Assembly: GCA_016868305.1 (NCBI GenBank)
Contig: VGHK01000024.1
Location: forward strand, 1 to 32,296
Length of the DNA: 32,296 nucleotides
DNA from: Betaproteobacteria bacterium
GTDB taxonomy: Bacteria > Pseudomonadota > Gammaproteobacteria > Burkholderiales > Burkholderiaceae_A
Reading direction: 5' to 3'
Shown: piece by piece, positions 27,557-32,296 of the stretch
Layout: every line of letters begins with the position of its first letter
Numbering within the stretch: position 1 is the stretch's first letter
Notes under the pieces: generated by a model
Seen by the model: only the letters and a program-made list of their open reading frames with translations
Databases searched by the model: none
What the model was told of the DNA's origin: nothing
Position numbers and translations under genes: made by a program

Positions 27557-30265
27557 ATGTCCACGCTTCCCCCGCACGTCAGTCAGCAAATCGCTACAGA
27601 GGCTGACACCGATCCGCAAGAAACCATTGAGTGGAGAGAGGCACTGGATGCGGTAATTGCCCGTGAGGGACCAGACCGGGCACGCTTTCTTGTTGAGTCC
27701 CTGATTGATGAAACCCGCCGTGCGGGCGGTTTTATTCCTTTTTCGGCGAACACCGCCTACGTCAATACTATCCCCGCCGCACGCGAGGAGCACTGCCCGG
27801 GCAATCTGGAGTTCGAAGAGCGCCTGCGTTCGTGGATGCGTTGGAATGCAATGGCGATGGTGGTTCGGGCCAATCGCACCGATGGCGACCTCGGTGGCCA
27901 TATTTCAAGCTTTGCCTCTCTGGCCAATATGCTTGGTATTGGCTTTAACCATTTTTGGAAGGGGCCGGATCATCCTAGTGGCCACGACCTGTTGTTTATC
28001 CAGGGCCACTCAAGCCCCGGTATCTATGCGCGTGCGTTCCTGGAAGGGCGGCTAACGGAAGACCAGCTTAATAACTTCCGGCGCGAGGTGGGGGGAAAGG
28101 GCTTATCGAGCTATCCCCATCCGCAGCTTATGCCAGAGTTCTGGCAGTTCCCAACAGTATCCATGGGCCTTGGCCCGATTATGGCGATCTACCAGGCGCG
28201 GTTCTTGAAGTATCTGCATGCCCGGGGCCTGAGTGATACCGCAGAGCGCAAGGTCTGGGCCTTCTGTGGTGATGGCGAGATGGATGAGCCCGAGTCTATG
28301 GGCGCGATTGGCCTTGCGGCCCGCGAGAAGCTCGACAACCTGGTGCTTGTGGTGAACTGCAACCTGCAGCGGCTGGATGGCCCGGTGCGGGGTAATGGCA
28401 AGATCATTCAGGAACTGGAAAGCGATTTCCGCGGTGCGGGCTGGAATGTCATTAAGGTGATCTGGGGCGGATACTGGGACGAGCTTCTGGCTAAGGACAA
28501 AGAAGGCGTCTTAAAGAAGATCATGATGGACACTGTTGATGGCGAGTACCAAAACTACAAGGCCAATGACGGGGCTTATGTCCGTAAGCATTTCTTTGGC
28601 AAGCATCCGAAGGCGCTGCAGATGGTGGCCAATATGTCTGACGACGATATCTGGCGCCTTAACCGCGGCGGGCACGACCCTCATAAGATCTACTCGGCCT
28701 TCTCTGCGGCCGTTCGCCATAAGGGCCAACCCACGGTGCTTCTGGTGAAGACCATTAAGGGCTTTGGCATGGGCAAGGTGGCCGAGGGCCGCAATACCGC
28801 CCACCAGACAAAGAAGCTCGATGATCAGGTGATCAAAGAGTTCCGCGACCGGTTTGGAATCCCAGTCTCAGATGCGGAACTGCCGGAGGTTCCCTTTCTT
28901 AAGCCGTCACCGGATTCACCAGAGATTAAGTACCTGCACGATCGACGCAAGGCTTTAGGCGGCTACCTTCCCACCCGACGTGTCAAGGCCGACGAGGCGC
29001 TGCCTGTGCCTGCACTGGATGTCTTTGCCCCCGTGCTCGAGGCCACCGCCGAGGGTCGGGAGATCTCCACCACCCAGGCTTATGTGCGATGCCTCACACA
29101 GTTGCTGCGAGACAAAAATCTTGGCCCCCGCGTCGTGCCTATTCTTGTGGATGAGGCCCGAACCTTTGGCATGGAGGGGCTCTTTCGGCAGATCGGCATC
29201 TATTCGGTGGAAGGGCAGAAGTACGAGCCCGTGGACCGTGATCAGGTGATGTACTACCGTGAAGACATTAAGGGCCAGATTCTGCAAGAGGGTATTAATG
29301 AGGCTGGTGGTATGAGTTCATGGATTGCTGCGGCAACCTCCTACTCCACCAACAACCGCATCATGATTCCTTTCTACATCTATTACTCGATGTTTGGGCT
29401 ACAGCGGGTCGGTGACCTTGCCTGGGCTGCGGGGGATATGCGGGCACGCGGCTTTTTGTTAGGGGGAACTGCCGGGCGTACGACGCTTAATGGCGAGGGG
29501 CTTCAGCACGAAGATGGCCACAGCCAGATATTTGCCTCGGTGATTCCCAACTGTGTCTCCTACGACCCGACTTTCGCCCATGAAGTGGCTGTAATTCTGC
29601 ATAGTGGTCTCAAGCGCATGGTGGAGAAGCAAGAAGACGTCTTCTTCTATCTCACGCTCATGAACGAGAACTATGCTCACCCGGGCCTGCGTGCTGGCAC
29701 TGAGGACCAGATTCTCAAGGGAATGTATCTGTTGCAGTCTCATGGCGAGAAGTCTGCAAAGCTGCGCGTGCAGCTTCTGGGAAGCGGAACCATTCTGCGT
29801 GAGGTTATGGCGGCGGCCGAGATGCTTGAGAAAGACTTTGGTATTGCCAGCGATGTCTGGAGCTGCCCGAGCTTCAATGAGCTGCGGCGCGAGGGCCTTG
29901 AAGCGGAGCGGCACAACCTTCTCAATCCCGGTTCAAAGCCACGCATACCCTTTGTGACCAAACAGTTGCAGCCGCATGCCGGTCCCATCGTGGCGGCCAC
30001 CGACTACATGAAAACCTTTGCTGACCAGATACGCAACTTTATGCCTGAGGGCCGTCGTTACATTGTCTTGGGCACTGACGGATTTGGCAGGTCAGACACC
30101 CGCGCGCGGCTACGTGAGTTTTTCGAGGTCGACCGTCGCTATGTGGCAACCAGTGCACTCTATGGTCTGATGCAGGACGGCCTTGTTACCGCTAAGCAAG
30201 TTACCGACGCGATTAAAAAATACGGCATCGATCCCAAGCAGTCCGATGCATCCTTGCCCATGTAG
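27557..30265 (+). CDS. aceE: Pyruvate dehydrogenase E1 component, homodimeric type
   Basis: The 902-residue protein is full length for AceE (E. coli 887). The thiamine diphosphate motif runs from GDGEMDEPES (GDG at 238-240) to NCN (267-269). Also conserved are FSANTAYVNT, GHISSFASLANMLGIGFNHFW-type text and GEGLQHEDGHSQ. It decarboxylates pyruvate and acetylates the lipoyl group of AceF. AGGAG lies 7 nt before ATG 27557. It is the first gene of aceE-aceF-lpdA and is divergent from the two-component kinase, with about 170 bp of shared regulatory DNA. Confidence 0.98.
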   Translation: MSTLPPHVSQQIATEADTDPQETIEWREALDAVIAREGPDRARFLVESLIDETRRAGGFIPFSANTAYVNTIPAAREEHCPGNLEFEERLRSWMRWNAMAMVVRANRTDGDLGGHISSFASLANMLGIGFNHFWKGPDHPSGHDLLFIQGHSSPGIYARAFLEGRLTEDQLNNFRREVGGKGLSSYPHPQLMPEFWQFPTVSMGLGPIMAIYQARFLKYLHARGLSDTAERKVWAFCGDGEMDEPESMGAIGLAAREKLDNLVLVVNCNLQRLDGPVRGNGKIIQELESDFRGAGWNVIKVIWGGYWDELLAKDKEGVLKKIMMDTVDGEYQNYKANDGAYVRKHFFGKHPKALQMVANMSDDDIWRLNRGGHDPHKIYSAFSAAVRHKGQPTVLLVKTIKGFGMGKVAEGRNTAHQTKKLDDQVIKEFRDRFGIPVSDAELPEVPFLKPSPDSPEIKYLHDRRKALGGYLPTRRVKADEALPVPALDVFAPVLEATAEGREISTTQAYVRCLTQLLRDKNLGPRVVPILVDEARTFGMEGLFRQIGIYSVEGQKYEPVDRDQVMYYREDIKGQILQEGINEAGGMSSWIAAATSYSTNNRIMIPFYIYYSMFGLQRVGDLAWAAGDMRARGFLLGGTAGRTTLNGEGLQHEDGHSQIFASVIPNCVSYDPTFAHEVAVILHSGLKRMVEKQEDVFFYLTLMNENYAHPGLRAGTEDQILKGMYLLQSHGEKSAKLRVQLLGSGTILREVMAAAEMLEKDFGIASDVWSCPSFNELRREGLEAERHNLLNPGSKPRIPFVTKQLQPHAGPIVAATDYMKTFADQIRNFMPEGRRYIVLGTDGFGRSDTRARLREFFEVDRRYVATSALYGLMQDGLVTAKQVTDAIKKYGIDPKQSDASLPM

Positions 30266-30269
30266 CATT

Positions 30270-30285
30270 GGTGCGCATGGGCACC
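30270..30285 (+). repeat. Small hairpin between aceE and aceF
   Basis: GGTGC (30270-30274) and GCACC (30281-30285) enclose a 6-nt loop. No T-run follows, so it is more likely an RNA-processing or stability element than a terminator. Confidence 0.35.
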
Positions 30286-30303
30286 GTGGTCTGAACGAAT
30301 TCG

Positions 30304-30561
30304 AAAAGGAAAAAAGGGTATGGCACAGGTTGAGCTGAGGGTACCGGACATAGGGGATTTTAAGGAGGTAGAGGTTATAGAGGTATTGGTGAAGGCTGGG
30401 GATGAGATTGGGGTGGAGCAGAGTCTTATTACGGTGGAGAGTGATAAGGCCTCGATGGAGATTCCGGCGAGTGTGGCGGGGAAGTTATTGAGTCTGGCGG
30501 TGAAGGTTGGGGACAAGGTGGGCGAGGGCAGTCTGGTGGGGATGGTGGAGGCTGCGGGGGC
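30304..30561 (+). repeat. Near-identical lipoyl-module repeat, copy 1 (aceF)
   Basis: This segment, from the ribosome-binding site through codon 80 of aceF, is repeated at 31730-31987. By eye the coding parts differ at 5 of 242 positions, giving E29D, G68S, V76L and one silent change. Codons such as ATA, TTA, GTA, AGG, AGT and GGG are common here and rare in the rest of the gene. Confidence 0.93.
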
Positions 30562-31666
30562 TTCCGCTGGGGGCAAGACCGTTGCCGGGACAGGCGACGA
30601 GAATGTGGCGAAGTCATTCGAGGCGCTGGCCCCGCCGGTCGATGCCCTATCATCTTCATCGAACGCGTCCCCCGAGGTCCAGCATATCAAGACCGCCCCG
30701 CCGGTCGATGCCCCATCATCCCCATCGAACCCGTCGCCCGCCTCCCTTCCCCATGCATCCCCTTCTGTGCGCAAGTTTGCCCGCGAACTTGGCGTAGACC
30801 TCACCAAGGTGTCGGGCTCAGGCCCCAAGGGCCGGATTACCCAAGAAGATGTGCAGAAGTTTGTGAAGGACGTGATGTCGGGTGCGTTGGCGGTGGGTGC
30901 TGCGCCCAAGGCCGCTTCTGGCGGTGGCGCGGGTCTTGATCTTCTGCCCTGGCCGCAGGTTGACTTCACCAAGTTTGGCCCCGTGGACGCGAAGCCCCTT
31001 TCGCGCATTAAGAAGATCTCGGGAGCAAACCTGCACCGCAACTGGGTGATGATCCCGCACGTGACCGGTAACGATGAGGCCGACATTACCGACCTTGAGG
31101 CGCTTCGGGTCCAGCTGAATAAAGAGAATGAAAAGGCCGGCATCAAGGTGACCATGCTTGCCTTCCTCATGAAGGCCGCCGTGGCCGCTCTTAAGAAATT
31201 TCCCGAGTTTAATGCCTCGCTTGATGGCGATACCCTGGTGCTCAAGCAGTACTTCCACATTGGCTTTGCCGCCGATACGCCCAATGGGCTTGTGGTGCCT
31301 GTGATTCGCGATGTGGACAAGAAGGGCGTGCTTGATCTTGCCGTAGAGACCTCTGCCATGGCCAAGAAGGCGCGCGATGGAAAGCTCTCGCCCTCCGAGA
31401 TGCAGGGAGGGTGTTTCTCGGTTTCATCCTTAGGGGGAATTGGGGGCACCCATTTCACGCCGATTATTAACGCCCCTGAGGTCGCGATTCTCGGCGTCTC
31501 GAAGTCTTCGACCAAGCCCGTCTGGGATGGCAAGGCCTTTGTGCCGCGCATGATCCTGCCACTGTCATTGTCTTACGACCACCGTGTCATCGATGGGGCG
31601 TCGGGCGCACGGTTTAACGCCTATCTGGTTCAGCTTCTTGGCGACTTCCGCCGAATTGCGCTCTAA
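30320..31666 (+). CDS. aceF: Pyruvate dehydrogenase E2, dihydrolipoamide acetyltransferase
   Basis: The 448-residue protein has one lipoyl domain (1-80, lipoylated K43 in [10 protein letters not shown]), a Pro/Ser/Ala linker with a 22-residue tandem repeat (about 104-147), a peripheral-subunit-binding domain (SPSVRKFARELGVDLTKVSGSG...GRITQEDV) and a catalytic domain with the active-site H421 and D425 (YDHRVIDG). It carries acetyl groups from E1 to CoA. Many relatives have two or three lipoyl domains; this has one. The ribosome site is AAAAGGA. The first 80 codons are almost identical in DNA to the start of lpdA and differ in codon use from the rest of the gene. Confidence 0.97.
   Translation: MAQVELRVPDIGDFKEVEVIEVLVKAGDEIGVEQSLITVESDKASMEIPASVAGKLLSLAVKVGDKVGEGSLVGMVEAAGASAGGKTVAGTGDENVAKSFEALAPPVDALSSSSNASPEVQHIKTAPPVDAPSSPSNPSPASLPHASPSVRKFARELGVDLTKVSGSGPKGRITQEDVQKFVKDVMSGALAVGAAPKAASGGGAGLDLLPWPQVDFTKFGPVDAKPLSRIKKISGANLHRNWVMIPHVTGNDEADITDLEALRVQLNKENEKAGIKVTMLAFLMKAAVAALKKFPEFNASLDGDTLVLKQYFHIGFAADTPNGLVVPVIRDVDKKGVLDLAVETSAMAKKARDGKLSPSEMQGGCFSVSSLGGIGGTHFTPIINAPEVAILGVSKSSTKPVWDGKAFVPRMILPLSLSYDHRVIDGASGARFNAYLVQLLGDFRRIAL
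30629..30760 (+). repeat. Two-copy 66-bp tandem repeat in the aceF linker
   Basis: Units starting at 30629 and 30695 both begin GCCCCGCCGGTCGATGCCC and encode APPVDALSSSSNAS and APPVDAPSSPSNPS. The period is 66 bp (22 residues), and only the first part of each unit is well kept. It extends the flexible arm between the lipoyl and binding domains. Confidence 0.8.
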
Positions 31667-31707
31667 CCGGCTGGCAGCGACTCGCTACTTTTTGAACAAG
31701 TAAGGAC

Positions 31708-31723
31708 GCGGGTAGCTTCCCGC
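31708..31723 (+). repeat. Small hairpin between aceF and lpdA
   Basis: GCGGG (31708-31712) and CCCGC (31719-31723) enclose TAGCTT. A T-run is absent, so full termination is unlikely; it may tune the amount of lpdA relative to aceF. Confidence 0.4.
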
Positions 31724-31729
31724 TCATGT

Positions 31730-31987
31730 AAAAGGAAAACAGGGTATGGCACAGGTTGAGCTGAGGGTACCGGACATAGGGGATTTTAAGGAGGTAGAGG
31801 TTATAGAGGTATTGGTGAAGGCTGGGGATGATATTGGGGTGGAGCAGAGTCTTATTACGGTGGAGAGTGATAAGGCCTCGATGGAGATTCCGGCGAGTGT
31901 GGCGGGGAAGTTATTGAGTCTGGCGGTGAAGGTTGGGGACAAGGTGAGTGAGGGCAGTCTGGTGGGGATGCTGGAGGCTGCGGGAGC
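31730..31987 (+). repeat. Near-identical lipoyl-module repeat, copy 2 (lpdA)
   Basis: Second copy of the segment at 30304-30561, again starting in the ribosome-binding site. The offset is 1426 bp and there is no gap in the alignment. Confidence 0.93.
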
Positions 31988-32296
31988 GTCGACTGGCCCC
32001 ACAACGGTCTTGCCCGCTAGCGGAGCTGAGGGGGTTACGGGTTCGGCTGGCGAGAATGTTGCGAAGCCATTCGAGACAACGAACCCGTCTCCCGAGGCCT
32101 CACAGGGAACCTCGACCCCGCCGGTCGCAGCCAATTCTCCGGTCAAGTCCTTCGCCGGCACTCCCGACCTCGAAACCGAAATGCTTGTTCTCGGCGCCGG
32201 CCCTGGCGGCTACTCCGCAGCATTTCGTGCTGCAGATCTTGGCATGAAGACCGTGCTCGTGGAGCGTTACAGCACTCTGGGTGGCGTCTGCCTGAA
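31746..32296 (+). CDS. lpdA: Dihydrolipoyl dehydrogenase (E3) with N-terminal lipoyl domain, partial
   Basis: The visible 183 codons hold a lipoyl domain (1-80, K43), an Ala/Pro/Ser/Thr linker (about 81-138) and the start of the flavoprotein: [21 protein letters not shown], then [10 protein letters not shown], where the window ends at the first redox-active cysteine. E3 reoxidises dihydrolipoamide with FAD and NAD+. Lipoyl-fused E3 is known in Neisseria, Ralstonia and other betaproteobacteria. The linker also shares ENVAKxFE and a TPPV segment with aceF, so the similarity reaches past the lipoyl domain. The ribosome site AAAAGGA lies 10 nt before the ATG. Confidence 0.96.

Follow-up and report, generated by a model that had tools for sequence, protein, structure and literature searches.

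Structure of the locus

The window analysed here, a DNA stretch of 32,296 nt, is the whole of contig C24 in the assembly of a Burkholderiales genome of 2.26 Mb and 97 contigs, labelled G000. Its 3' part carries the genes of pyruvate dehydrogenase with the following features:

27557..30265, plus strand: aceE, pyruvate dehydrogenase E1; open reading frame with Pfam PDH_E1_M and transketolase domains, directly 5' of aceF
30304..30319, plus strand: aceF leader with ribosome site, common to lpdA except for one base
30320..31666, plus strand: aceF, E2 of pyruvate dehydrogenase; open reading frame with lipoyl, E3-binding and catalytic domains
30320..30570, plus strand: lipoyl module copy 1 (aceF); 97% repeat, dS of 0.019 to copy 2, fourfold sites G-rich and C-poor
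30629..30740, plus strand: two imperfect 46-nt repeats in the aceF linker (repeat family D2, 89%)
31730..31745, plus strand: lpdA leader with ribosome site, a copy of the aceF leader
31746..32296, plus strand: lpdA, E3 of pyruvate dehydrogenase, 5' part only; open-ended reading frame that runs on into contig C52 of this genome
31746..31996, plus strand: lipoyl module copy 2 (lpdA); 97% repeat, characterized likewise by dS and composition

According to Pfam, AceF consists of a Biotin_lipoyl domain (residues 5-73), an E3_binding domain (144-179) and a 2-oxoacid_dh domain (223-446). The lipoyl-lysine codon is located at 30446-30448, the lysine of the DKA motif being presumably the modified residue. 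LpdA begins with an N-terminal Biotin_lipoyl domain (5-74), followed by FAD_oxidored, and matches the PDB structures 5u25 and 1bhy. These matches give it the arrangement of the P64K-type E3, in which an N-terminal lipoyl domain and a linker precede the FAD domain. Judged by its sequence, LpdA of the window is a lipoyl-bearing E3 of this type, with predicted lipoylation and activity; work on an enzyme of this kind is cited as Tozawa 2001 in PMC6270654. At 32078-32296, within lpdA, the end of contig C52 agrees with the final 219 nt of the window except for a single mismatch, and a strain variant may have interrupted the assembly there. An open frame of 463 aa antisense to aceF (30160-31551, minus strand) is probably a shadow of codon composition.

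Both modules lie in the direct repeat D1 of 267 nt (30304-30570 and 31730-31996, 97% identical), which codes for the N-terminal lipoyl domains of AceF (E2) and LpdA (E3) and was found at these two places only in a DNA search of its own genome. The nine differences between the copies are at 30314 (in the leader), 30406, 30521, 30523, 30545, 30559, 30562, 30565 and 30566; four of them fall in the first 237 coding nt, and the longest exact shared run is 114 nt. A preliminary description had reported about five differences per 242 coding nt, and exactly five are counted in 30320-30561. The four amino-acid changes that it gave come down to three (E/D, G/S, V/L), because 30521 and 30523 belong to one codon and 30559 is silent. 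The ribosome site was correctly described as common to both genes, the stretch 30304-30319 being shared with one difference. Between the two copies of the window, dS is 0.019 (NG86, 79 codons).

Divergence of the modules within and between genomes

The genus is represented by 11 genomes, in four of which (G000, G001, G004 and G009) both copies are assembled. The dS between the two copies of one genome is 0.019, 0, 0.019 and 0, respectively. Eight between-genome pairs in the genus give dS of 0.234-1.160 (0.259 for G001/G002, 0.234 for G004/G006 and 0.564-1.160 for six others), and the G000/G007 pair is saturated. The near sameness of silent sites noticed earlier in the window is borne out by a dS of 0.019 within it versus 0.56-1.16 to the copies of G001, G004 and G009. 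A between-genome pair from the sister genus, G021/G023, has a dS of 0.080.

All four genus pairs stand together or are identical in the module tree. The modules of the genus make up a single supported group (100/99), so that their nearest relatives are not outside their own clade, as horizontal acquisition would have it. The best tree with the aceF copies of the genus forced into a clade was rejected (p-AU 6e-5); since the constraint left the two identical pairs free, the rejection rests on G000 and G004. Thus, to the question raised in the preliminary description, whether the copies group by gene or by genome, the answer for this genus is by genome. In four of four genomes the copies are closer to each other than to their orthologues, at silent sites too, which is the pattern of concerted evolution. 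The identity starts 16 nt upstream of the ATG in the window and at the ATG in G001, G004 and G009, where the leaders differ. Its 3' end is in or near the linker; in G009 the contig stops earlier.

Conversion tracts and spread beyond the genus

In the sister genus, the paralogues are separated by dS of about 3 in G011, 0.97 in G015 and 0.47 in G013. The G013 pair is a mosaic, differing at one of 108 positions in nt 124-231 and at 29 of 129 outside, which none of 300 permutations equalled. The orthologues differ at 22-26 of the same 108 positions, and so the segment is not merely conserved. Tracts were also found in Pigmentiphaga L046 (paralogues 1/66, orthologues 14-25/66), Corticimicrobacter L035 (8/174 versus 28-30/174) and Bordetella genomosp. 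5 L033 (6/171 versus 21-26/171). The scan covered ten chosen pairs, mostly of high identity, and gave four clear cases (0/300, 0/200, 0/200 and 1/200), three borderline ones (L054 with 9/200, L045 with 11/200 and L036 with 14/200, the last being near-identical throughout) and three pairs without a tract (L053 with 23/200, G015 with 46/300 and G011 with 220/300). Partial tracts with edges beyond what conserved sequence explains are present in G013, L046, L035 and L033. Together with the module pair of Bordetella genomosp. 7 (L036), which is 99.6% identical, they place marks of conversion in several separate lineages.

In a wider set of 92 genomes with both genes, the same-genome partner was nearest for both copies in 16, for one copy in three and for neither in 73, counts that depend on which close relatives were sampled. 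The 73 genomes with copies nearer to those of other genomes, as well as the dS of about 3 in G011, speak against conversion; over most of the order, as far as these sequences indicate, each copy goes with its own gene. The wider-set counts, including those relating identity to composition below, leave out genomes without both genes; L031 was dropped as it was taken to be the same record as G001, and one module listing left out modules shorter than 200 nt (e.g. both G003 halves and G017). A lipoyl match is located at most 700 nt upstream of the Lpd core in 101 of 103 loci, both exceptions being entries for the single genome G007. An E3 with an N-terminal lipoyl domain is usual in this order.

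Codon composition of the modules and of tuf

The codons of both copies had been described as foreign-looking, and an equal codon bias across the genes had been named, along with clustering by gene, as what would refute the inference drawn from the repeat. This description is half right. The composition of the module differs from the remainder of the gene and its fourfold sites are extreme, but the rare-codon score is mild (z of -2.08 and -2.43, with 250 and 191 of 2820 windows as low or lower). Among the 2820 windows, codon use departs furthest from the norm (z to -7.2) in stretches of L173 (G000:C22:1-20000, minus strand), a region that is perhaps mobile or foreign.

At fourfold sites, modules 1 and 2 have 8% and 5% C and 66% and 68% G; the genome sample has 38% C and 30% G. 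The window module has a fourfold G+C of 0.74 versus 0.69 in the genome sample; relative to the E2 core, the module value is raised in G001 and G004 and reduced in G009. As the sign of this change differs between genomes, the constant feature is a strand asymmetry, G over C. The twofold sites of the aceF module carry 18 G and no A, and nine T and two C. The difference G minus C was scanned in 6950 windows of 79 codons from 367 open reading frames (672 kb of G000). The top three of the 367 are both tuf genes (0.68) and aceF (0.58), and the next reaches 0.37; lpdA is outside this list because it runs off the contig. The tuf pair of G000 is identical over 1188 nt, and the longest other repeat in the 672-kb sample is 247 nt at 90%. 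Thus, tuf of the window's genome carries the same skew as the lipoyl module; this sharing is the surprising part of the data and remains a correlation. The Chi octamer GCTGGTGG does not occur in the modules of G000, G001, G004 and G009 or in tuf of G000, and G runs are unusual in G000 only, among five modules checked.

Across the modules of the genus, fourfold C is down to 3-24% and G is raised. G minus C is at least 0.31 in all nine genus genomes with a usable module (G007 apart), of which four show both copies and five one copy, the partner being presumed in some. In G009, the module (0.59) and the best window of tuf (0.69) are equalled by none of 1476 windows. Two of 1541 windows in G001 reach the module (0.37), and its tuf was not found at the threshold used. 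The tuf skew of G004 is weaker (G 0.49 and C 0.33 in the first half). The G004 locus L125 has aceE matches in two pieces and an lpdA module frame interrupted by stops in the linker; one copy of tuf in G004 also has a stop. These features suggest that the assembly contains small insertions or deletions. In G007, lpdA is without a lipoyl domain and has a short new N-terminus right after aceF (L128 7989-8173). The E2 and Lpd trees do not resolve the place of G007 inside the genus, and the loss of its lpdA module is thus argued by parsimony. The unpartnered aceF module of G007 has C 0.60 and G 0.21, a skew of -0.38; its best tuf window, from one copy at a contig end, reaches 0.61, above all 1494 windows. 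The genomes of the genus share ancestry, and the number of independent events behind the skew is accordingly small. The modules of G021 (L136, L181) and G023 (L137) show the opposite skew, with fourfold C of 0.51-0.57 and G of 0.09, and tuf of G021 is C-rich too.

In other Burkholderiales, the tuf excess of G over C ranges from -0.43 to 0.74 and is above 0.3 in 9 of 27 loci, two of the original 29 having been dropped for want of a usable flank; the tuf search covered 47 of 80 loci and gave a match in 23 of the 47. Seven tuf pairs were compared outside the family: the pair of Paracidovorax is identical and those of Pseudacidovorax and Variovorax have six and four differing sites, with no skew. 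The tuf pair of L106 is identical and skewed. Bordetella genomosp. 7 has a tuf excess of 0.43 and an excess of 0.19 in its near-identical module pair; in Bordetella genomosp. 5 the values are 0.28 for tuf and -0.32 for a module pair of 91.6% identity. G033, with a tuf excess of 0.71 and an excess of 0.05 in diverged modules (identity 0.684), fits the reading of the skew as a footprint of conversion. The Spearman coefficient between tuf and module excess is 0.08 (n = 32; eight of 40 genomes were dropped, being without a pair or a reference), and -0.10 for the 27 pairs below 0.9 identity; this lack of correlation rules out tuf skew as a predictor of module skew. Module identity and module skew correlate at 0.39 in the 92 genomes and at 0.31 without the family's genomes, relatedness being uncorrected. 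Conversion alone is insufficient for the skew: it needs a peculiarity of the genus, slow build-up or another cause.

A shared selective need in translation, or in mRNA structure at gene starts, could instead have made the silent sites of tuf and the module G-rich without conversion, an explanation of the skew to which we give somewhat less than even chances. In tuf, the first half of the gene is the more strongly skewed, the module is at the start of its genes, and conversion is insufficient for skew elsewhere (the module pair of Bordetella genomosp. 7 and the tuf pair of Paracidovorax). However, the fusA-, rpoB-, rpoC-, rplK-, rplA-, rplJ- and rplL-like genes of G000 have fourfold C of 0.38-0.52 and G of 0.14-0.29 (the rpsL-like gene has G 0.40 over C 0.37), and the aceF module of G007, likewise at a gene start, is C-rich. 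As regards replication strand, the rpoB- and rpoC-like genes share their strand with both tuf genes and lack the skew. High expression was discarded as a cause, because nearby genes are without skew, bar the slight G excess in the rpsL-like gene.

Missing aceF in related assemblies

Among 18 genomes from the genus and the sister genus, the aceF E2 core was found in eight, a fragment in G006 and no core in nine (E 1e-30). In six of these nine (G002, G003, G005, G008, G010 and G023) a near full-length aceE match is situated beside the module. Two contigs of G003 end inside the module with an exact overlap of 52 nt. G019 has no module at E 1e-12, so that its whole locus may be absent or missed. 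The missing aceF is likely due to assembly collapse at the near-identical repeats. With no E2 core in nine of the 18 assemblies, pathway calls may wrongly report a broken pyruvate dehydrogenase. In genus g3 of the family, eight of eight genomes have no lipoyl module (E 1e-12) and no aceF E2 core (E 1e-30), and this genus may be without this pyruvate dehydrogenase.

For G005, G008 and G023, a real deletion of aceF by recombination between the direct repeats would account for contigs that run aceE, module and lpdA without aceF, and for the lack of an aceF E2 core elsewhere in these genomes. A pyruvate dehydrogenase lacking E2 should not function, however, and in other relatives the contigs just end in or near the module; a real deletion is improbable. 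Breaks or collapses at the module in several related assemblies are what one would expect if the near identity itself were an assembly product of merged reads. This is very doubtful, as nine differences separate the window copies and each copy sits in unique flanking sequence, partial tracts with edges are present in G013 and three other genomes, and collapse itself requires near-identical copies.

Probable gene conversion of a shared domain

The preliminary description had offered continuing gene conversion or the recent duplication of a module of different origin. A foreign module, acquired and recently duplicated into both genes with the codons of its donor, agrees with a codon composition unlike the remainder of both genes but is hardly credible beside the single supported group of genus modules (100/99), the skew kept in nine of nine genomes with a usable partnered module despite dS up to 1.16, the lpdA domain in 101 of 103 loci and the mild rare-codon score. 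A single recent import would not explain a composition kept across species at dS of 0.56-1.16 or a domain lying upstream of nearly all Lpd cores, and the species comparison (dS, tree, shared skew and domain spread) rejects a foreign origin. The first of the two offers is sustained by the within-genome dS of 0-0.019, the clustering by genome and the partial tracts in relatives. Very probably, gene conversion between the lipoyl modules of aceF and lpdA keeps the copies alike while the rest of the genes diverges; the skew as its footprint is a weaker part of this explanation.

By this mechanism, homologous recombination would copy one lipoyl module over the other again and again. The spread of the lpdA domain means that the copying must occur onto an existing domain, not as a fresh duplication. 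The lipoyl domain would then evolve as a single unit in each genome, and the remainders of aceF and lpdA would diverge independently. RecA-type strand invasion may link the copies, which lie 1.4 kb apart. Selection may tolerate or favour the sameness, possibly because E1 and the lipoylation enzymes are common partners of the two domains. The coding-strand excess of G over C could, in this genus, be the footprint of long conversion, because the identical tuf pair is skewed too and the unpartnered module is not. One possible route to the skew would be unequal repair of different mismatches combined with a fixed invading strand. Odd tract shapes have been ascribed to unequal repair of mismatch types, according to the passages of PMC5485169 considered here; the strand-polar part of the route goes beyond that source and is our own suggestion. 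That conversion in this genus is strand-polar, regularly converted coding sequence drifting to G for C on the coding strand, is tentatively proposed and stands at well under even odds.

Comparison with known systems and significance

The tuf genes are a well-known conversion pair (passages of PMC6053082). As in the concerted evolution of tufA and tufB, two chromosomal copies would be kept alike by repeated conversion, with the identity breaking off at either end of the common coding sequence (PMC5485169 and PMC6053082, as far as their passages go). Unlike tufA and tufB as portrayed there, the shared unit is one domain of about 80 codons at the starts of two different enzyme genes and not a whole paralogue. 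For mtrA, PMC6053082 describes long-lasting conversion and mentions gene fusion and domain shuffling; the modules resemble mtrA and other recurrently converted genes in that long-lasting conversion would act among genes of one complex. The table passages of PMC6053082 contain no pyruvate dehydrogenase gene, and the words 'dehydrogenase' and 'lipo' are absent from its main text as covered here. As with GC-biased gene conversion in the passages of PMC8981503, the converted sequence bears a trace in base composition; unlike there, G replaces C on the coding strand. Instead of a rise in G+C on both strands alike, fourfold C drops, G rises and the sign of the G+C change varies. The passages covered on P64K-type E3 make no mention of homogenization with an E2 domain. 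In the PMC literature (most subscription papers lie outside it), no combination was found of lipoyl domain with concerted evolution, of gene conversion with lipoyl domain and dihydrolipoamide, or of gene conversion with pyruvate dehydrogenase and aceF. Lipoyl domain and gene conversion occurred together in a single paper, which is an antibody review to judge from its title and opening lines.

In all four comparable genomes of the genus, two enzymes of one complex share a domain as an evolving unit below the level of the gene. If conversion is strand-polar there, the silent-site skew would be a readable record of the sequences under continuing conversion. Should the skew prove to be a footprint of conversion, converted sequence could be flagged by its base composition, and biased repair in bacteria would become testable.
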